This document shows positions 33,444 through 51,844 of a stretch of 55,962 nt of DNA, piece by piece (the first letter of the stretch is position 1; every line of letters starts with the position of its first letter). The notes under the pieces were generated by a model. It had not been told where the DNA came from and searched no databases. It saw nothing but the letters and a program-made list of their open reading frames with translations. This stretch comes from Ectocarpus siliculosus (Eukaryota; Sar; Phaeophyceae; Ectocarpales; Ectocarpaceae): positions 56,409 to 112,370 of the forward strand of contig FN648381.1 of NCBI GenBank assembly GCA_000310025.1. Reading direction: 5' to 3'. A program made the translations under genes and the position numbers.

Positions 33444-33860
33444 CCAGACACCTACTCTTCCAGGAGGGTGCGCACCTAGTTGGCTGCAGACACCTACTCT
33501 TTCAGGAGGGTGCGCACCTAGTTGGCTGCAGACACCTACTCCTTCAGGAGTGTGCGCACCTAGTTGGCTGTAGATGACTACTCTTTCAGGAGCGTGCGCA
33601 CCTAGTTGGCTGCAGACACCTACTCTTTCAGGAGAGTGCGCACCTAGTTGGCTGTAGATGACTACTCTTTCAGGGGCGTGCGCACCTAGTTGGCTGTAGA
33701 TGACTACTCTTTCAGGAGCGTGCGCACCTAGTTGGCTGTAGATGACTACTCTTTCAGGGGCGTGCGCACCTAGTTGGCTGAGGTCACCTACTGGTTCAGA
33801 TTTGTGCGCACCTAGTTGGCTGTAGATGACTACTAGTCCAGAATCGTGCGCACCTAGGTG
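33444..33860. repeat. 42-bp tandem repeat, array 1 (about 10 units)
   Basis: The unit ends GTGCGCACCTAGTTGGCTG. Two unit types alternate: one with GCAGACACCTACTC and one with GTAGATGACTACTC. The array is followed by a tail beginning GTGTTTACGAACAACTAGCC. Confidence 0.95.
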
Positions 33861-34654: not shown

Positions 34655-35042
34655 GCACCTAGTTGGCTGCAGACACCTACTCTTCCAGGACGGTCCGCAC
34701 CTAGTTGGCTGCGGACACCTACTCTTCCAGGAGGGTGCGCACCTAGTTGGCTGCAGACACCTACTCTTCTAGGAGGGTGCGCACCTAGTTGGCTGCAGAC
34801 ACCTACTCTTCCAGGAGGGTGCGCACCTAGTTGGCTGCAGACACCTACTCTTTCAGGAGCGTGCGCACCTAGTTGGCTGCAGACACCTACTCTTCCAGGA
34901 GTGTGCGCACCAAGTTGGCTGTAGATGACTACTCTTTCAGGAGCGTGCGCACCTAGTTGGCTGTAGATGACTACTAATCCAGGAGCGTGCGCACCTAGTT
35001 GGCTGTAGATGACTACTCTTTCAGGAGCGCGCGCACCTAGGT
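34655..35042. repeat. 42-bp tandem repeat, array 2 (about 9 units)
   Basis: Same unit and same two unit types as array 1, but sorted: five or six GACACC units first, then GATGAC units. It is closed by the same tail. Because 42 is a multiple of 3, long frames run through the array; they are not evidence of a gene. Confidence 0.95.
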
Positions 35043-38514: not shown

Positions 38515-39010
38515 AATGTGCACTTTTTTATCTCACAGGAGGCCCATTTTCTTGTCGAACCTTGGGCAACCCCTTTCCCTCGAACCCTGCTCAACCCTCT
38601 CGGAAAATCTGAACCCTGCCCAAGGTTGGGTTGGAGGACGTTGTCCAACATGGTCGATTTCTCGGACCTTGTCTAGTGTGCACTTTTTTACCTTGCACAA
38701 GGCCCATTTTCTTGTCGAACCTTGGGCAACCCCTTTCCCTCGAACCCTGCTCAACCCTCTCGGAAAATCTGAACCCTGCCCAAGGTTGGGTTGGAGGACG
38801 TTGTCCAACATAGTCGATTTCTCGGACCTTGTCTAGTGTGCACTTTTTTACCTTGCACACGGCCCATTTTCTTGTCGAACCTTGGGCAACCCCTTTCCCT
38901 CGAACCCTGCCCAACCCTCTCGGAAAATCTGTACCTTGCCCAAGGTTGGGTTGGAGGATGTTGTCCAACATGGTCGATTTCTCGGGCCTTGTATAATGTG
39001 CACTTTTTTT
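38515..39010. repeat. 160-bp tandem repeat, about three units
   Basis: Units start with GTGCACTTTTTTA at about 38518, 38678, 38838 and 38998 (the last one truncated). Each carries GGCCCATTTTCTTGTCGAAC, TTCCCTCGAACCCTGC and CAAGGTTGGGTTGGAGGA. 160 is not a multiple of 3, yet all frames stay open over several units on both strands. I take that as composition, not coding. Confidence 0.93.
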
Positions 39011-39561: not shown

Positions 39562-39660
39562 TCGGATATCCTATGGTTTTAGGTACACATGTCGGTGAAG
39601 CACGGCGATCTGATCTCCTATGGTTTTAGGTACACATGTCGGTGAAGCACAGCGATCTGC
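39562..39660. repeat. Two-copy direct repeat (about 53 bp)
   Basis: TCCTATGGTTTTAGGTACAC followed by ATGTCGGTGAAGCAC occurs twice in tandem. It lies at the 3' side of the Copia remnant. Confidence 0.85.
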
Positions 39661-40300
39661 TGTCGTAGCACGACCAAACCGGTGTGGTCAAGATCGCCCT
39701 ATTTTCTTGCTCCTCAGAAGCCAGCAGATCATCAAACCGTACTCTGAAGCCCTCGTTGTGTTCGAAAAGGAGCGAAACGTTAGACGGTCGCAAATTAAAA
39801 GTTGGGCCCCTGGTAGATACAGCCTTTTTTTCCCTCGTGGGGATGAGAAGGGAAAAAATGTCGCTCACTTCGCTCGCTGCGCGGCTCATTATAAATATTG
39901 TGAGATTTGCCCCGCACCCAGCGGGAAGTGTGTACGCCTGCTTCACGTCCCAGTGATTGAGATTCATGCCCCTCTCGCTTGCTACCGCAAGCATCAGTTT
40001 AATGGGTGCGGATGATGGGCAAGGGGAACACGAATGGATATAGTCCACGTTCGGGATTTGCGACAACTCCCTGGCAACCAGACGCGCTTTGACAATCTTC
40101 CCTTCCTTGTTTGTCTTCAAACTGAAACACCACTTCGAGCCCACAGGTCTACGCCCATCTGTAGCGCCGTCTACAAATAAACGAAAACGTTCCCGTGCCC
40201 ACGTGCACATCAAACTCTTCCCTTATGGCCTGTTCCCACCGCTCTCTGTACTCGGACTTGGCAGCGCCGCCTACGTTCATGGGGGGGGGGGTTCTTAGTC
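39626..40300 (-). pseudogene. Ty1/Copia reverse transcriptase remnant
   Basis: Reading leftwards: a RERWEQAIREEFDVH segment at about 40190-40260 is typical of the start of Copia RT. After a frameshift it continues RRPVGSKWCFSLKTNKEGK, IVKARLVARELSQ, NVDYIHSCSP and LNHWDVKQAY, the N-terminal palm blocks up to the first catalytic Asp. After KQAY the similarity stops, and the fingers, the YVDD box and RNase H are absent. It is a 5' fragment of RT joined to unrelated sequence, with a G10 tract at its upstream edge. Confidence 0.82.
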
Positions 40301-41224: not shown

Positions 41225-41833
41225 ATGTTCGAGTTACACTTGTCTCGGTGGTGTATTAACTTCGCAAGAGGAGATAGTACCTCGCTCCACATCCCCCTTG
41301 GCAAGTCTTGGTGTAGTGCTTCACCGCGGAGCACTCGTCAATGCCGTAGGAGGTTGCATCCATCGATCTCACTCTCATGACCCTGTCAACGTATTCCTGT
41401 TTGGGGCACCGCGAGCCGCCGTATCCAATCGCCCTCCGGACAAAGTCAGGACTCACTCCCGGTGTGTATTGGGGGAGGGACTGTCGGTACTGTTGAGAAG
41501 CACGATGACCACTAGACTACCAGTCAGCGGCTGACTGGTAGTCTAGTGGTCATCGTGCTTCTCAACAGTACCGACAGTCCCTCCCCCAATACACACCGGG
41601 AGTGAGTCCTGACTTTGTCCGGAGGGCGATTGGATACGGCGGCTCGCGGTGCCCCAAACAGGAATACGTTGACAGGGTCATGAGAGTGAGATCGATGGAT
41701 GCAACCTCCTACGGCATTGACGAGTGCTCCGCGGTGAAGCACTACACCAAGACTTGCCAAGGGGGATGTGGAGCGAGGTACTATCTCCTCTTGCGAAGTT
41801 AATACACCACCGAGACAAGTGTAACTCGAACAT
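41225..41833. repeat. Perfect palindrome, 304-bp arms
   Basis: 41225-41528 is the exact reverse complement of 41530-41833, with one centre base at 41529. The right arm runs into the gap, so the true arm may be longer. The inner 38 bp of each arm (from TGTTGAGAAGCACGATGACC to the centre) recurs as a 77-bp imperfect palindrome at 50030-50106. Each arm reads outward as a short frame with a VMRVRSMDATSYGIDE segment and a KTCQGGCGARYYL cysteine cluster. Confidence 0.93.
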
Positions 41834-41882
41834 NNNNNNNNNNNNNNNNNNNNNNNNNNNNNNNNNNNNNNNNNNNNNNNNN
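41834..41882. other. Assembly gap
   Basis: A run of 49 N directly at the outer end of the palindrome's right arm. Confidence 0.99.
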
Positions 41883-41934
41883 CCCCCCCCAAACGCCATA
41901 CTATATCCTATATAAACCACACCATACTAATTCC

Positions 41935-41946
41935 TATATAAAAAGG
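41935..41946 (+). promoter_or_regulatory. Candidate TATA box of the large gene
   Basis: TATATAAAAAGG lies 108 bp before the first ATG at 42043, with a similar TATATAAA at 41909. Transcription would start near 41965-41975, giving a short leader. Confidence 0.5.
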
Positions 41947-42042
41947 GGAACCGTACGACCCAGGGGGGGTCTTTGTGCATCTGCGTCCCCCCTAGCCTGT
42001 GCGCTTGCGGGTGCTGTGGGGTGCTTGCGTACCACGGAGAGC

Positions 42043-45000
42043 ATGATGAGTGCTCCCTCAGGGGCAGGCGTAAGCCTAGACCGAGCAGCTTTCCGGCAGC
42101 AGGACTGGCTGCAGCGACATTGCACAGAGAAAAGCAACAGCGAAGGTGGTGTGGAGTGGATTTGCTCTTGCGGGCAAGGATTCGGCGATGGCTCTGGGGT
42201 AGACGCGGCGACGTCTGTACAGCATGAGCTCTCGGACAAGCACAAAGCGTGAGTAGTGCGGAGGAGTGACGACTTTGGGGGTGTTGTTTGCTGTGAACGC
42301 TGCCTCTTACACCATTCTCTAGACGTCTCTAACATGAGAACCTATTTTGTGCAACCCAGCAAAAGTTGAACCCAGCAAGCAACATGCGGCGTGATTACCG
42401 TAGGCGACACAAGATACCACACCCCCTGGAAAAATGTTAAAAGCTCGACTACTGTACAGAAGTACTCCACAGCAGTAGAAAGAGTGGCGGTGCCGTAAAT
42501 GGTGGCGTTAAAACCTTCTCGTCGAGGGCTTTTCCAGAAAAATGCCACCAAGATTTTGGGATGCTCTTCGTCGTGGGGTGCAGTCGCGCGGAAAAAAACG
42601 CTCCGGGGGGTGTGGTTTCTTGTGTCACCTACGGCCGCTACGCTGTTTTGTAGGGCAAGGAGGTTGATGAGCGCTGGCTACTCCTAACCCTAAGCTTGAA
42701 CAGAGCGCTGTATCGACGTAGTCGATACCGGCGGCAGCAGCGGCAGCAGCGGCAGCAACGGCGGCCACAACGGCAGCTGGTGTATTGCGCGGAAAATTAC
42801 GCGCAAACAATACGGAACGTTCCAGCTACCAATGCAACTGGTTGTTCGACGTCCACACTAGATCTATAGCTTGAATGCAAAGAGGTTGAGCTGAGTTGAC
42901 GCTGGCCGCACCGCCCCCTCCTCTTCGACAACACAATAACGTTAGCAGTTATATCGAGGCGGTGAAGGAAGCAGCTCTGCCTATTTCACGCATCGCCAAG
43001 AAGAAGAGTGGCAAATGGATCTGCGAGTGCGTGAAAGATCTCGGGTCTGATCCCACGCGGTGGACCACAGTGCACGTGCAGCAGCACGAGGGTTCAAAGG
43101 ATCACACGTGAGTACAGATGTAACGTCTTCGTAAATAAAAGAGTGCCTGCTGATGCACGACTCGCCCTTCCGAAAAGTACACTTGCATAACTATATACAC
43201 GAGATTTGCAGAAGTGCTAACAGTCGCAAAACTGTTGTTCGAATCGTCAGGAGAGTCGTGAGTGCGAAGGCGAGAACCCCGACAGTGCTGAACTTTTTCT
43301 CCCGGGCGTCAGCATCATGCCCCACGCAGAGCGCAAACGAGTCAGTGGTGTCGATAGGGGCTAGTAGTGATGGGGGTGCTGGCAGTGAGGTTGAAGTGCT
43401 TTCCGGGCGAGCACCAGGCAGGCCTGAAGGTCAAGGCGCGGGCAGCGAGGTTGAGGTGCTTCCCGGCGGAGCTCTAGGCGGGCCTGTGAGTGGTGGGGCC
43501 GGCAGCAGGGTTGAGAGGCTTGCCGAGGGAACTGCAGGCGGACCTGAAGGTAGTGCGGGCAGGCTTGAGGTCGACAGCCGGGATGCACCGACGGAGATGC
43601 AGCCTGGGGAGAATGTCCAAACTCGCAACTACTGCGTGGGGCTACGTCCGGACGTCCAGGAACCTGTACTCCAGCACTACCCGACCACTCTGCATGGTGT
43701 CTCCTCCGCGACGATGTCGTGGGAAACTCGGATCGCTTCAGGGCGCGTTGCTCTTCATGCTGTGGACACGGCCATCGACGGAGTCCGGAAGCCCAGATGT
43801 TTGGGGACGGTGGGGCAAGAGGGAGAAACGTGCGACGCGTGCATGGACATCCAGTACAGGCGCGTATACAGAGGTGAGCTGACGCAGACACGGGGTATGA
43901 TCACCGCAAATCATAGACAGTGACATGGAGTTTCAAAAATTGTGTCAGGGTCGAGAAACACACTCCACACAACCCCGTGCTGTCATGGTTTCCTAGCTCC
44001 GAGTTTATGCATTCCCAACAACAGCAGGCCTTCTGCATGCTTCCGTCTTCGAGCAGGTTTGGTCGCAAGAGCTAAGCTGCGTGAAACGGATACCTCGCTG
44101 AAGAGTATCCCTTCAGATCTGTTGACTCCACACCAAAAACGAGCCCGGGGGAACGAGTGGAAGAAGAAGTTCGAAGTACAGAAACTTTTTACTCTGAATC
44201 AGCTAAGGAAGTGCATGGTTTCCCACCGTAGGCTCACACTCGCCAAGAGCATCTTGATTTACTTGGCGGACAAGGACGTGAGTGGCGTTCACAGATTGAT
44301 GAGTCAGGCGCGGCGAGACGGCCTCTCTCTGAACGCCATCCTGGGTAGGTTGCAGCAGGCAGTAGCTGGCACGTACAATGCCAAAGGGTACAGCGAGAAC
44401 GAGTATGACTTGGCAATCCTGGCCATGCGGCTGGGGGGGCAATCGCTGCTGCACGCTTTGCACAAGGCAGCGGGATTCCCGGGGGCAACAACGGTGTACG
44501 CGAAGATACGGGAGCGCTCGGTGAGTGGTATTGAGGGCAACGGAATTTAGAATCACCCCATTGCACGTCAGTCCCAGTCCATGGCAGCGCAGTAACTTTC
44601 GGGGAGTTGCCCACATTGTAGGTACCTCATGCCCGCCGATATTTTCTCTGCAACTCGTTTTCTTTGGTTCGATATCTACAGATGAAGTTCGCCCTCTGTG
44701 CGTCGGCTGACGTTGAGTGTCTGACTGCAGCCATCACCGCCAACCTGGAGCGCTTCGTCTCGCTGTACAAAGGAGAGAAGAGAGTTATAATCCTGCAGAT
44801 GGACGAGCTCGCTACGGAACAGCGTGCGAGATACGACCAAGAGGGGGATAACGTAAGTTACTTCAAGACCGCTTGAGCCAGGCGCGTGGAGGACGTTGTC
44901 CATCGGCAACAACGTCAATAATGTTGTATCACTTCGGGGAGAGCTTCGTTCCGTTACTAATAGCCGTCCTTCGTCCGTGTTGTGCGTGGATAATTCGCAG

Positions 45001-48000
45001 ATTGTCGGTTTGTGCGTGCAGTGCACTCCCCGCAAGAACACGAAGTTCGGTGGCGTGAGCAGCGTGGAAGAAATTGCGGGCATGCTCGACAAAGGGGAGT
45101 GCCACATCGGGCATCAACACACAGTCATCTCCGGAGCTGCTCTCGGGGATCGCCCATACCACGCAGTGCCATTGCTGGCGTTTGCGGTCTGCAACGAGCC
45201 GAATCCTCTCCAGCAGCAACTCGCTTTGAGAACGGTAAGCACGACGGCATCTTCCTGCGCACTTGTCATTCGTAAATGGCGCTCGCCTCTCCCCCCGTTT
45301 CGCTTGTTCACCACAAGCTACTCTCTCGTACATAAAGTCAGGAATATGCTAACACTCTTCTCCCGGCACCGCGTCTTGGGATCATTCCCCCACATCTCCA
45401 TTACACTCCCTCCATCTTGTTGCTGCAGGGAGTGTACCGTGTACTTGTCGCAGCTGTACAAATGATCGCAGCACATGTATCGCTATCGTCTTATGATGAA
45501 CGCCCTTTTCTGTCCCGCCGCCCACGTTGATGTGGCAGATCCTGGACGTGTGGAACTCGAACCCCGCCTTCGGTAACACCCTCGGCCCTATCGTGCTCGT
45601 GTGTTCGGATGGGGATGCGGTGAGGCGCAAAGTGTTGCACGACCTCACCAGCGGTGGCACATCGGACGTCTTGAACGTTTTCAAGCTCATGGACAAGACA
45701 ACCAGTGTAGAGGGCCTCATGCAGTGCTTTGATTTGAAGCACTGCGCGAAGCGATATCGCACGAAGGATATTTCGAAGAAGGGGGTCCGTGTGTCGGGGG
45801 GACTTGCGCTCAACCGCGACACTTATCCCGAGCTTTTTCGGGTGCACGACGGCAATCCTGAGGCCACGTACGACGCTCTGTTCAACCCGGACGACACGTG
45901 AATTCTAATGTTTCCTCCGCTGCAGCCCTGTGGTCTCTCTCCACCCTCCGTTCATTGGGTAGTTCCTGTTCGGCGCGCCGTCGAAGGTTGTGAAATTGAT
46001 ACAACGATCGCTTGGAACTACGTGTCCAACAACTTGAAATCTTCGTGCTGTACGTACTTCTCGGTCATTCAGGCAGAACGTGGGGCTCGGGGTGAGACTG
46101 CTTCAGAAGCAAGTGAAAGTTGCGAACGCCACCCAGGGACAGCTAGACGAGTTGGCGAAGAAGCCTGGGTTGGCAAAACTGCACGACGATTTGAAGGTGC
46201 GCACCGGCAATGCCCTACGAGACATCACTCATTCGTATCCTATTTAATCCCACGTGTATAGAGCCTTACCACGTGTGACACACCATACGTTCAGCCGGTT
46301 GCAAGCGGGTGTAGCTGTAGTACAGATTTCCCCCCTAGCATTCTCTTTCGTGCATGCAAGGTTCTTTTGGGTCGCGCGATCACTAGAAGTCGTTCTTCAG
46401 TCCCCTGCTCAATTCTTGGCATCGAAACAGGTGAAAGCGGCCATCGGAGAGAACCTTGTCGCTGTGTTGTGCGACCCTTCCAAGAGCGTGGGCCAGCTTC
46501 TGGAAGGGCTGTCGTGCGTCGCTCATTTGCTGCTCGTCCTGTTTCGCGTACATCGGACCGGGGTAATGACGGGGCAACTCTACCACGACACGCAGGCGAC
46601 GATTCGCGGCATCTTCTACTGTGTGCTGAAAGTGCAGGAGCACAGCGAGGCCATGGCAACGTTTCTCTGGCAGATTGGCACTAATTTGCTTGAGAACCTT
46701 TTTGCCGTGGTGCGGACCCTGACCAACGCCAGGAACGTCGATGGAAAGGAGCTTGGGGACCGCCTTGGCGCCGCTGTCACCCTCGAAGAAATCTACTGCA
46801 AGCACCCGGGCTGGGCGAAGACGTCTCGGCGCCTGAATGACTCTTGCGATCACATGAACGTGGAGACCTGGAAAAGCGCCGGGCCCACCGACAGTTGCAA
46901 CGTGCGGGTTGTGGATGTCCCTGAACAATGGAATGAGGGGCGGAGGAAGGCCACGGCCATCTTGCAGGCACACGAAGAGTACACCGACGTGACAGCTGCC
47001 ACATTCGAAGGCTTTGAGAAGGAGGGCATCACCATGTTCTTCCCTTTCGGGTAAGTTCACGCAGACTCTTTTGTTGCCGTTCACTGGACTGGAAGTTTTT
47101 GTTTGGACGAATGTCGTCTGTTGTAGTTTAACATTCTCCTTCCGCCAGACAAAATGCTCGCAAGAGGATGGGCCCTGTGCCCACATGACACTGTAATTTT
47201 TCGTGGACATGAACTTCTGACTGGGCCTAGGATAGTACTCTTTTTTATCGTGTGGCCACCCTCACCTCCGTCGCCGTCTTCTTTGTTGAACAAAGTAATT
47301 GAATCGTTTACACAATTTGCGACGAACCCATTATTGTCTGTCTACCATCTCCCGCGCGTTCCTTCCAAGGCCGTTGGAAGCTATGCCCGGATTGCGCCTG
47401 TCTGACAAAAACGGCACGGATGACGACGGGGATGGTCTCGGCGAGGGACTCGACGAGGGGGCATCTCCCACGGTCGCCGAGGGGGCGCCTCCCACTGTCG
47501 CCGAGGGTGCGTCTCCCACCGTCGCTGACGGAGAGTCCGACGATGCCGTCATCCGTGAAGCGTTCGAAACGGAGGGACTACATTCAGGGTCGCCCTCGCA
47601 CTCTCCCTTCCTCGAGGTTAACGGGAAAAAGGTGCGTCTCTCTGTATGTGGTCGTGTTCGCATGTTTCTTAACCTTGCTCACATTTGACTTACTCTCTTG
47701 TACCCCTCTTTTCACGCCAACTCTTGTTGTTCCCCCATGTTCCTGGTGCCCATCCCGTTTGCATCCGTCTTGGATGATAGGTCCACAAGGCATCAGCGGT
47801 GAGAGTGTACACCGGGCAGCATGCCAAAAACGCCTCCCGAGACCGCCTCATGCGAGTGCGGGCATTTACCACTGCAACAGGTGGGCCCACGGCCGCTGGC
47901 AGCCCCAACCTCGACGATTCAAGCTCTATTCTGCAGGTCGGAGCTCCTGTTGCGACGCTGTTTAGAATTCGTTCGGAACCTCGACAAGCCCCTCAGTACG

Positions 48001-49449
48001 GTATCGGGATCGTGATCGTAACGGAGACACCACGTGCTACCATTGAGGCGGCAGATGGGCAGGTCGTCAACGGGCAGCTAATGAAGCTGGTTGCTGAGGG
48101 TGGAACTTCGGTGTTTGAGTGGGAGGGCCGCCTGCTGCACACGGACCATACCTACAGCTGCCCTTTACCGCTTGTCATCGAGCTGGATCCAACGATGGAC
48201 ATGAAAAAGATGACCTACGCGTTCAGCATGGATGAGCTGACCACGACACAGCATGTGCTAGAAGAAACAGCAAGCTGCACCCTAGGGTGGGCGGCTTTAC
48301 CTACAGTGGGCAAGCCAAAGAAGGGCAAACCAGCAGCTCTTCCCCTACATGGTGACCTGATTTGCACGCCAGGTGGGGCTCTAGCGGTGGGAGATGTCCC
48401 CGCAGCATCTGTCGATGGGAAGGTCGAGTGTCCACGTTGCTGCTTGAAGGTTGGCGCGAAGGCCCTGGTGCAACACATGGCCGGACACATCCTTGAGCAC
48501 GAGGTACGTGTCCGCGTGCGGTGTGTTGAGTATTTTACAAGCCATTTTTGGTTTGCGTGCATGATGTCATGTGGATGTGCACGTCAACATTGATCTTGAT
48601 AAGCCGATGAACATCCAATGATTCAACTCATTTCATCCAGTCTCTTTGCTTGTTACCTTTGGTTTCCTCGTCAAATGATTTGAATGCTTGTGTCTCGACG
48701 TTGCTGTTTGTCGCCAAATGAAGGACCTCCGCAAGGGTGACACATGCGGCTTTTGTGGAGGAGGCCGCTGCAAGACGTGGGTCGTGACTCCCGGCGGCAA
48801 AGCTGCACCGAAGATACACTCGACGTGTATTCTCGCGCCGAGGACGGATTCGCGAAGTACCGTCGTTGGACTAAGCCTGAAGTCGGCGGCAACACCCTCC
48901 GCTGTCACACCATGCACCAACGTGCCCCTGAAGTGCATCTTTTGCACTCCCGACCGTTGGGTGTGGAAGTACTGCATGTCGTACCACGTGCAGGAGCAGC
49001 ACGGGCCAGACTTGGCGCTGAGAAAAACGGATCCCCGTGCTGTGAAATTCGTAGCCAGCTACGACGTGTGTGAGGAAGGAAAATCGAAGGTGGCGAGAAA
49101 GCCGAAGAAGGGTCCGGGTCCCAGAAATCCTGTCGCTGTTGCACGCCGCAAAACTAGACCCAAACCTTCTCGTCGCGCAGTAGAAGTAGATTCGGAGTCC
49201 AGCGAACAGGGGGAGGGCAGCGACCAAGAGGGAGGAGGGGACGGGGGGAGCAGTGAGGAAGAGGGGAAGGAGGAGGAGGAGGAGGAGGAGGAGGAGGAGG
49301 AGGAGTCGGAGGAGGAGGGTGGGGGCGAAGAGGAGGAGGAAGAGGAGCAGGAGGAGGAGCAGGAGGAAGAAAATAAAGACGAGCCGGACGTGAGCTCGAG
49401 GGGGCGTAGACGCACACCAAAACGGCGCTTTTCGGAGTTAGAAGTTTAA
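42043..49449 (+). CDS. Large 13-exon protein with P-element-like RNase H core and zinc fingers
   Basis: My exon model is 42043-42248, 42946-43107, 43251-43873, 44057-44520, 44682-44852, 45001-45234, 45429-45476, 45539-45897, 46073-46196, 46401-47050, 47370-47631, 47781-48503 and 48724-49449. Every junction is GT-AG with matching phase and there is no internal stop, giving 1583 residues. Residues 37-67 and 91-122 are two related fingers (W-I-C-x-C, 17-18 residues, H-x5-H). About 320-485 is a helical region containing RLGGQSLLHAL. MDE (D526), SDGD (D660) and LLENLF (E895) look like an RNase H-fold D-D-E set. GQLYHDTQ and RLGAAVTLEEIY flank the third. C2H2-like fingers lie at 1318-1337 and 1413-1435, then a basic patch and a polyglutamate tail. 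It resembles, from memory, multicopy basidiomycete proteins of unknown function. I infer a DNA-binding transposase or a relative. The weakest points are exon 7, the starts of exons 10 and 13, and the exon 4-5 link. Confidence 0.8.
42386..42640. repeat. Fold-back repeat in intron 1
   Basis: CCGTAGGCGACACAAGATAC followed by CACACCCCCTGG at 42399-42430 is matched in reverse complement at about 42601-42634, with partial matching beyond. The pair could form a 30-bp stem with a 170-nt loop, as in a small MITE. Confidence 0.65.
42728..42780. repeat. (GGCAGC)n-type tract in intron 1
   Basis: Imperfect GGCGGCAGCAGC triplet repeats. The frame is open, but the tract lies in the spliced-out interval of my model. 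Confidence 0.7.
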
Positions 49450-49809
49450 ATGCGGTATTGTTGGAACACCCAGCACTAGTAGTACGTTCTGAGGTTCCGC
49501 CGAGCATCGGGGTTGTTGGGTCACGCGCGGAGAGTATGTAATGTGCTGTTGCCTATCTGGGTCCTCAAAGTTGTACTGAGAATTGATTCGAGGATGTGTC
49601 AACTTGGATGTGGTGTGGTTTCTTAACCAATTATTTTTTTTATGCCCCAGGGTTTTTACGTGGATTACAGACGCATACGTGGATGATTCAAGAGAAAACA
49701 AAATGGCAAAGGGAAGAAATTTTTTTTTTTTTGGGCCCCTCCCGGGGGGGGGGGGGGGGGTACGTAGGTGTGCGGAGTAACTTTTCCCGTGCACCCTTGA
49801 CAGACTACC

Positions 49810-50029: not shown

Positions 50030-50106
50030 TGTTGAGAAGCACGATGACCATTAGACTACCAGCCAGCCGCTGACTGGTAGTCTAGTGGTCATCGTGCTTC
50101 TCAACA
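50030..50106. repeat. 77-bp palindrome, second copy
   Basis: Arms 50030-50067 and 50069-50106 with two mismatches. It is nearly identical to the core at 41491-41567. Each arm contains a tRNA A-box-like TAGTCTAGTGGTCATCG. Confidence 0.95.
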
Positions 50107-50180
50107 GTACGTACGTACGTGCCTCGTGTTTTGAACACAACGTTCCGCGAGGAAACACACACTCACGTACGTACGTGTAG
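50107..50180. repeat. ACGT-rich inverted repeat
   Basis: GTACGTACGTACGTGCCTCG on the left pairs with CGAGG and CACGTACGTACGTG on the right. It adjoins the 77-bp palindrome, giving two potential hairpins in a row. Confidence 0.75.
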
Positions 50181-50959
50181 TAGGCGGTGATTCGCGGTCA
50201 TTGCTGTGTGCTTGAAGCGTTTCATAATCGGACGGCACAGCAGCTTACAAATCCTGGGTGTGTGTACAGCTCACCGATCTCGATGACACAAAGATCGTGT
50301 GGAAAATCGCGGACCGCTGTTGTGTAGTGTATCGCAAGGGCTACAATCTCAAGACTATCAATCAATGTAGAAGACGACGGGGGGGTCAGCGTTCGGTTGC
50401 GATTGATTTTTTTGTAGATTCGTACTGTGGAGTTAGAATTTGGAAAACCAAGATATGCAGCAGGCGTTTCCTGGATTTTTGAAGAGGAGGTATTGCGATC
50501 TCCCCCGCGCCCTAAACTTGCTAAAAGTCCACAACCTAAGAACTTGGCCTTAATTAACCCTTTGGAGTCTACAGGCCCTCTGACGGATCATTGATACACA
50601 CAACACACAAGAACAAAAAATAATTTTTTCCATATTTTTTTTTATAGCGCTGAACAGACGGTCTAGTCGTATAGGGGAGGATAGGAAAGAAACCCCGAAC
50701 CACACATGCAAAGGAGTTGTAGAGCACACAAGGGTAGAGCGCGCCCGCCCCACCAACACACAGCTGCAAACACACGGAGCATCCACCAGAGGTGCGCCGA
50801 GAGGTCACGAGGAGGCCTCTACGACCCGCGTGGTCTGCCCTGTCTATCTGGGCGGCGTTGTTGGTAGCGCTTGCGGTAGCGCTGCCGGCAGCGCCAGTTG
50901 CCATTCCTTCTTGTACATGGGCTTTGGCCGTCTCTCTCCGGCAGCCATCCACACTTGCT
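50181..50959. other. Unassigned DNA
   Basis: No gene recognised. The frame leading into the polyglutamine ORF is open from about 50792 without an ATG in good context, so an upstream exon or 5' leader is possible. Confidence 0.35.
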
Positions 50960-51402
50960 ATGAACGCGGCCACTGAGGACAGCGAGCTTGGCATGGAGGA
51001 CAGCGGTTCTGCAATCGACCCAAGCGTGCCGAGTGATGATGAGGATGACTGTGAGTTTGATATGGGCGCATCGTACAAATCGATATATGCTACGAACTCG
51101 CAAAAAGCTGGTCACAATACCTGGGGAGCAGCTCGGCAGCTACGACAACAACAGGCGCCGGCATCACCGGTCACGCCGCCGCTCCGGACGACTTCGCTCG
51201 GGCCGCAACAGCGGCAGCGGCAACAACAGCAGCAGCAGCAGCAGCAGCAACCATCTCCACCGGAGCGTTTGGATCTAGTGGGTGTAACGAACTTGCATGA
51301 CGCTGGTCACAACACCCGCGGCGCAGGTGGGCAACAGCAGAATCAACAGGGGACCCCGGAGCTAGCGGTCACGGACCGGCTACCTACGACCTCGTGTGAG
51401 GC

Positions 51403-51437
<35 letters not shown>

Positions 51438-51844
51438 CATCCCCACCGGATCCTTGTCCGGCGAACCCGGCTGTATGTGTCGCTATCATTAGCCGCGGCG
51501 CACGACGCGGCGAAAAGTGCGGCAACAAGGTTGGAGGTAGGACGCAAGGATTTTGCAAGCATCATGACGGCCTACAGAAGCGCCGAAAGACAGCGTCAGG
51601 TGCAGCTCTTGGAGTAGGTGCAAGCGTCGAGGCAGGCAACTATGATTCGGAGTCAGAGTTGGGTGGTGGCGTGGACGAATTGCAGGCTCCTGGTGCCCAT
51701 CCTTTCATAGCGAAGTCTAAGGAACTGCACTACGCGCAGGCCTCCAAGATCGAGGATGAGGGCTTGCGGAGAGCGCAGGAGAGCGTGTGGCACCTCAAGC
51801 GGATCAAGCTTCCAAAACCAAAGGTGCACATATGTAGTGCTTAG
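50960..51844 (+). CDS. Polyglutamine protein with internal duplication and small Cys/His motif
   Basis: About 294 residues from the ATG at 50960. I do not recognise the family. Residues about 1-40 are acidic. Two copies of an approximately 75-residue segment follow, each starting near AGHNT-GA and ending in a polyglutamine run plus PSPP (first run of ten Q, second of eleven). After them comes a compact C...RGEKCGNKVGG...FCKHH cluster, a plausible single zinc site. The C-terminus has a charged helical stretch ending KRIKLPKPK. The CAG runs and the duplication point to slippage and unequal exchange. It lies between the large gene's right palindrome and F copy 2, 1.9 kb before the piggyBac-like gene. 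It could be a host gene or an N-terminal exon of a transposase. Confidence 0.6.

Follow-up and report, generated by a model that had tools for sequence, protein, structure and literature searches.

Transposases of the P superfamily share the catalytic signature D..D..[C/D](2)H..E (PMC8230255), and the P transposase is described as unusual in requiring GTP (PMC10983969). The target duplications made upon insertion are 8 bp long in the case of Pdre2 (PMC10983969) and mostly 7 bp in the case of Galileo (PMC4168063), and faulty gap repair yields deletions in elements of this superfamily (PMC4168063, PMC1562414). The members considered here are all from animals and possess an N-terminal THAP domain, which is not part of the catalytic machinery. 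Here we analyze a gene located at positions 42043-49449, on the plus strand, of a 55,962-nucleotide stretch of the genome of the brown alga Ectocarpus siliculosus (assembly GCA_000310025.1, contig FN648381.1, positions 56,409 to 112,370; hereafter, the window). In all likelihood, this gene encodes the transposase of a brown-algal family of cut-and-paste DNA transposons that operates in the manner of the P superfamily and is probably related to it.

Joining 12 exons at GT-AG junctions produces a stop-free frame of 1570 codons with consistent phases, from the ATG at 42043 to the stop at 49449. A first-pass annotation of the bare sequence had already recognized a spliceable gene with consistent phase and no stop, but counted thirteen exons and 1583 residues; these values have to be replaced by 12 and 1570, whereas the order that it gave for the motifs MDE, SDGD, QLYHDTQ, LLENLF, and RLGAA is indeed the one present in the spliced frame. 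The exons and their principal features are as follows:

42043..42248, plus strand: exon 1, with the first of two N-terminal motifs that look finger-like by eye, CxC...H...H (WICSCG...H...H); 44% identical in the paralogous copy B
42946..43107, plus strand: exon 2, with the second of these motifs (WICEC...H...H, likewise by eye); its basis includes the protein record P0001
43212..43873, plus strand: exon 3, low-complexity linker
44057..44520, plus strand: exon 4, holding RLGG; residue 455 corresponds to 44389
44682..44852, plus strand: exon 5, MDE; putative first catalytic residue, D539, at 44802-44804
45001..45234, plus strand: exon 6, both junctions matching P0001
45539..45897, plus strand: exon 7, SDGD; putative second catalytic residue, D657, at 45608-45610, with D659 also conserved
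45731..45742, plus strand: within exon 7, [C/D](2)H motif, D698-L-K-H701
46073..46196, plus strand: exon 8, piece of the region separating D(2)H from E
46431..47050, plus strand: exon 9, QLYHDTQ, putative catalytic E882 at 46692-46694, and RLGAA
47370..47631, plus strand: exon 10, linker carrying 24-bp tandem repeats
47781..48503, plus strand: exon 11, C-terminal domain with a CPRC...H...H finger-like motif at its end (about 48429-48499); aligns with the Suillus protein P0010
48724..49449, plus strand: exon 12, further C-terminal C/H motifs common to Suillus P0010, acidic tail, and stop

Some of these junctions recur in independent protein records, namely, those between exons 5 and 6 and between exons 6 and 7 in P0001 from E. 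fasciculatus, and that between exons 8 and 9 in P0004 and P0007. The records themselves are imperfect, with exons 3 and 4 missing from P0001 and extra residues present at the 5/6 and 6/7 junctions of P0007. For exons 1-4 and 10-12, the junctions are supported by the open frames, the GT-AG sites, and the resemblance to copy B. The ratio of nonsynonymous to synonymous substitution rates (Ka/Ks) between the window gene (copy A) and copy B is 0.31 (bootstrap 0.24-0.38; Ks 0.85; 652 aligned codons from exons 4-9), indicating that the frame is under selection and, thus, that the gene is more than a chance joining of frames.

The four elements of the P-superfamily signature occur in the window gene in the canonical order, as D539, D657, D698-L-K-H701, and E882, with spacings of 118/41/184 when D657 is taken as the second residue, compared with 73/36/192 in the P element and 70/40/199 in human THAP9 (published residues, PMC8230255; P numbering checked on structure 6p5a). 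The distance from the second D to the E is 225 residues, similar to the 228 in P and 239 in human THAP9, whereas the first and second D are considerably farther apart than in either protein. We prefer D657 over D659 because the preceding V-x-V-x-S-D resembles, by eye, the residues before D303 of P and D374 of THAP9. Thus, the P-element-like acidic set anticipated from the bare sequence stands with respect to its order and spacing, but not with respect to the identity of the residues, which are D539, D657 (or D659), and E882 instead of D526, D660, and E895. The D, D, D(2)H, and E are conserved in every covering row of an alignment of eight sequences (A, B, copy D, P0007, P0009, P0003, P0006, and P0010), in which copy D was joined by eye and from which P0001, P0002, P0004, P0005, and P0008 were left out; the gene model of P0008 lacks the second D.

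The family has been mobile in the past, as is evident from its ends, 7-bp target duplications, and deleted copies. Copy B opens with CAAGGGTGCACAA...CCGACACCTAACCC and closes with the same sequence inverted (one base longer); the 7-bp duplication AGGAACT flanks it on both sides. The inverted ends of the copies begin with CAAGGGYGCAC, and in the 189-Mb genome searched for copies and termini (492 contigs), the pattern CAAGGGNGCACN{4,30}CACCTA has 104 matches (53 forward and 51 reverse), compared with 1 for the reversed-pattern control. Among 13 pairs consisting of a plus and then a minus terminus within about 13 kb, picked by eye from the listed matches, 8 are bounded by an exact 7-bp duplication. 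Searches with the window gene (tblastn) detected pieces of it in 7 of the 13 pairs (L038, L039, L041, L045, L046, L047, and L049), and in all seven, the catalytic core (residues 477-1043) was left uncovered at E 1e-3, a cut-off that more diverged pieces would escape. Four of the six pairs without gene pieces (L043, L044, L048, and the joined L050/L051) consist to 45-83% of N, which masks their content. In L041 (contig C26) and L039 (C23), the matches include the first exon and the linker exons and leave out the catalytic ones, a pattern that recalls the internally deleted derivatives of P elements (PMC4168063). Long stretches of G or C are found immediately internal to the inverted repeats (near 49750 in the window, and in copies B and C), and on the 5' side of both A and B, N gaps adjoin the C run.

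The window copy itself has an identifiable 3' end and a conserved block near its 5' side:

41834..41882, no strand: assembly gap (N), possible site of the 5' terminus of the window copy
41883..41948, plus strand: 5' subterminal block, with which 38 of 40 further match rows in the genome overlap
49765..49799, minus strand: 3' terminal inverted repeat, CAAGGGTGCAC...CACACCTA, with the terminus at 49799, 350 bp past the stop

The flank beyond 49799 begins with ACAGACT, the predicted target duplication. In contigs C23, C33, C97, and C147, the 5' subterminal block lies 91-98 bp inside the terminus, and in C7, C57, and C26, it lies farther inside. The 3' end of the window copy resembles the ends of copies on C138 and C340, with which it shares the terminus type CAAGGGTGC[AC]C...CTCCG[CG]ACACCTA. 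Genome searches with exon 7 and exon 9 found no match in the C138 and C340 copies, which therefore look non-autonomous; given the shared end type, the window copy appears to belong to a subfamily of its own that includes such non-autonomous derivatives.

Copies retaining the catalytic exons are few. The search with exon 7 identified two further genomic matches, 55-56% identical, and that with exon 9 identified five places, the window included, among them a divergent copy D (C211, 41%), which also matches around the second D and was overlooked by the exon-7 search, and a fragment on C24. Copy B, on contig C27, has tblastn matches spanning nearly all of residues 1-1519 and to all 12 exons. Copy C (C130) shares 92.9% DNA identity with B across 6.6 kb, has stops in exon 4 and frame changes, and, in the stretch examined, shows no match before residue 218. 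Exon 4 produced 34 match rows, including the window, some of which are pieces of one place.

Homologs were also sought among proteins. The search with residues 380-1000 of the model returned no protein at E<=0.1 among 7995 scored candidates, a null result that reflects the limits of the word filter and not absence, because relatives emerged in a later search. The third protein search, for which the alignment included an unverified fungal row, scored 7994 proteins and retrieved eight: two labelled Undpi1 (a label taken to mean Undaria pinnatifida), one from Scytosiphon promiscuus, the earlier fragments P0001, P0002, P0003, and P0006, and one from the basidiomycete Suillus subluteus (F4604DRAFT_1938847; P0010). 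Against a profile built exclusively from algal sequences (A, B, P0007, P0008, P0009, and P0003), P0010 scored 37.0 bits, and the highest score among 200 shuffles and one reversal was -0.5. Window residues 901-1480 align with P0010 at 74.3 bits (BLASTP, E 5e-18 in a one-sequence database; 22% identity across 626 columns), and the alignment extends through the C-terminal C/H motifs. Judging from these sequence alignments, P0010 is clearly a homolog along the C-terminal half: it shares the region around the catalytic E, RLGAA, and the finger-bearing C-terminal part, but the record, named 'hypothetical protein', begins past the position of the first two Ds. The proposal of a family outside fungi with fungal kin thus holds, with the fungal side represented by this one protein; the family is presumably multicopy in basidiomycetes. 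We regard the family as a P-like lineage that may constitute a separate superfamily and that occurs in brown algae and in at least one basidiomycete, whether by transfer or by old descent.

How close this lineage is to known P-superfamily systems can be judged from several comparisons. With Drosophila P (PDB 6P5A), the algal gene shares the order D, D, D(2)H, E, the spacing from the second D onward, and the long D(2)H-to-E stretch, but it lacks a THAP domain, is associated with 7-bp rather than 8-bp duplications, comprises 1570 residues in 12 exons, and has a C-terminal finger region. The GTP-contacting D444 of P has no convincing counterpart by eye, in a region where the alignment is unreliable. 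Galileo of Drosophila is similar in its mostly 7-bp duplications and many non-autonomous copies and differs in its long inverted repeats and THAP domain (PMC3688188) as well as in its target consensus, GTATTAC, whereas the nine algal duplications display no obvious consensus by eye. Human and zebrafish THAP9 and Pdre2 match in the signature residues and spacing (PMC8230255, PMC10983969), and the ends of Pdre2 begin with CA, as do the algal ends; however, these proteins have no significant sequence match with the algal gene, which is devoid of the THAP domain, and the duplication of Pdre2 is 8 bp. Overall, the inverted ends and 7- or 8-bp duplications typical of the P superfamily are found here in the form of CAAGGG ends and 7 bp.

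At the sequence level, similarity to P and THAP9 themselves is marginal. A profile without the unverified fungal row, compared with P and THAP9 (the latter row entered by hand), gave a local score of 22.1 (E 0.084) for an alignment that pairs D539 with D230 and starts at residue 455 and P 157, so that the remainder of exon 4 aligns, at a marginal score, with P 157-202, the segment just upstream of the P catalytic domain. Inclusion of the fungal row raised the score to 29.8, which was attained by none of 150 shuffles; this row is unverified, and we give the result little weight. A number of observations speak against a P-like transposase. The local score against P and THAP9 was reached by 5 of 150 column shuffles (1 of 60 in another run), and the global score was at chance level, with 24 of 60 shuffles as high. 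Against P alone, hhalign scored the algal profile at 14.8, compared with 29.8 for the top of 100 shuffles, and in another run, at 20.3, with at least 6 of 60 shuffles as high. No Pfam family was detected at E<=1 and no THAP domain in the window gene model, and a Pfam scan of six relatives returned none above cut-off. The comparisons with fungal proteins and Pfam to which the first-pass annotation pointed produced a homolog in Suillus but no Pfam family for the model. No 5' terminus was seen for the window copy, which has an N gap at 41834-41882, and 5 of the 13 terminus pairs (L038, L040, L046, L049, and the joined L050/L051) lack an exact 3-12 bp match, although the flanks of L049 differ at one base of seven. 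AlphaFold models of the Undaria relative P0007, obtained with 16- and 14-row alignments, had mean predicted local distance difference test values of 39.4 and 37.9 and were unusable. Because of the weak profile scores, with that against P alone not significant and the global one at chance, we describe the protein as working like P and probably related to it, rather than as a member of the superfamily.

Additional searches gave little. The relatives' alignment A2 had no match among PDB sequences; Pfam PF21787 matched neither the genome nor the 14 controls and is hence uninformative; and in viral contigs, 64 stretches matched a pattern but included no relative, with no match to the P element pattern there. 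Weak matches of the relatives to WY-domain, CDC45, and chemokine Pfam families fell under the cut-offs and were set aside.

The same features of sequence and mobility bear on other explanations. The gene could belong to an unnamed DDE transposon superfamily in its own right, P-like merely in spacing, an explanation that we consider possible but on balance doubtful: the missing THAP domain, the lack of a Pfam match, the weak profile score, and the N- and C-terminal domains unlike those of P would fit it, whereas the four-point signature, the similar spacing after the second D, the 7-bp duplication shared with Galileo, and a best local alignment that is collinear with P and pairs the first catalytic D argue otherwise. 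As a tentative proposal, still short of being the expected outcome, the elements may constitute an unnamed superfamily, a sister group to P found in brown algae and mushroom-forming fungi, with a pair of N-terminal CxC/H-H fingers and a multi-finger domain at the C terminus standing in for THAP.

The first-pass annotation left it open whether the transposase is active or domesticated. A host gene derived from such a transposon, with the window copy kept for a cellular role, would account for an intact 12-exon gene amid repeats, the 98% identity of the E. fasciculatus protein fragment P0001 to part of the window gene, and the Ka/Ks of 0.31 relative to B. However, that value is equally a property of B, which has both ends and a duplication, and selection for transposition would explain it. 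Furthermore, a 3' terminus lies shortly beyond the stop of the window gene, and copies with the same type of 3' end, on C138 and C340, look non-autonomous. A mobile element with termini, 7-bp duplications, and deleted copies counts against domestication, which, because of the ends, we rank low and consider unlikely, whereas the transposase part of the initial claim stands. More improbable still is that the gene is cargo or a regulator carried by elements moved by another transposase, for example, of the KDZ or hAT type. Copies bearing the core are few (three by exon 7, plus the divergent copy D) compared with the 104 termini, and 6 of the 13 pairs contain no piece of the gene, as would be expected of cargo, but four of these are rich in N, the gene itself carries the acidic signature of a transposase, and Pfam detects no other transposase in it. 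Pfam contains hAT and KDZ models, and membership in these families was set aside, there being no Pfam family at E<=1.

If the gene encodes a P-like transposase, as we favor, the protein would bind the element ends through its C/H finger motifs and then pair them. An RNase H-type active site formed by D539, D657, and E882, and interrupted by an insert after D698xxH, would cut and rejoin DNA, as in the P transposase; cuts staggered by 7 bp would generate the target duplications, and incomplete gap repair after excision would leave behind deleted copies.

The surroundings of the element are rich in repeats. The 609 bp at 41225-41833, which run right up to the N gap, are 99.8% identical to their own reverse complement; this is either a genuine palindrome or an artefact of the assembly folding back on itself. 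The palindrome core recurs past the opposite end of the element, at 50030-50110 (96-98% identity in both orientations), where the letters are reminiscent, by eye, of a tRNA-like short interspersed element. Farther away are two arrays of 42-bp tandem repeats (33445-33857 and 34655-35040), a 160-bp unit repeated in tandem about three times (38517-39009), a minus-strand open frame resembling, by eye, a fragment of a Copia-type reverse transcriptase (39626-40222), and an open frame of 368 codons that contains runs of glutamine and a short Cys/His motif (50738-51844).

The listings obtained from searches of open PMC papers pointed to no P-like family described from brown algae. The 2025 curated repeat library of Ectocarpus sp. 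7 includes Dada, Harbinger, KDZ, Mariner-Tc1, MuDR, PiggyBac, Sola-1, Sola-2, hAT, and EnSpm elements (PMC12477816); its Table 1 has 51 families under 'DNA/Unknown' and names no P superfamily, and the terms 'P element' and 'THAP' are absent from the main text of that article. The family described here may put a name to a source of unclassified Ectocarpus DNA repeats. If it indeed represents an unnamed superfamily, the P-type catalytic design would extend beyond animals, and part of the brown-algal 'DNA/Unknown' repeats would be explained. The P-superfamily members considered are from animals; a brown-algal and fungal lineage that combines the same catalytic layout with other DNA-binding domains and a 7-bp duplication would reveal which components of the P design are of ancestral origin.

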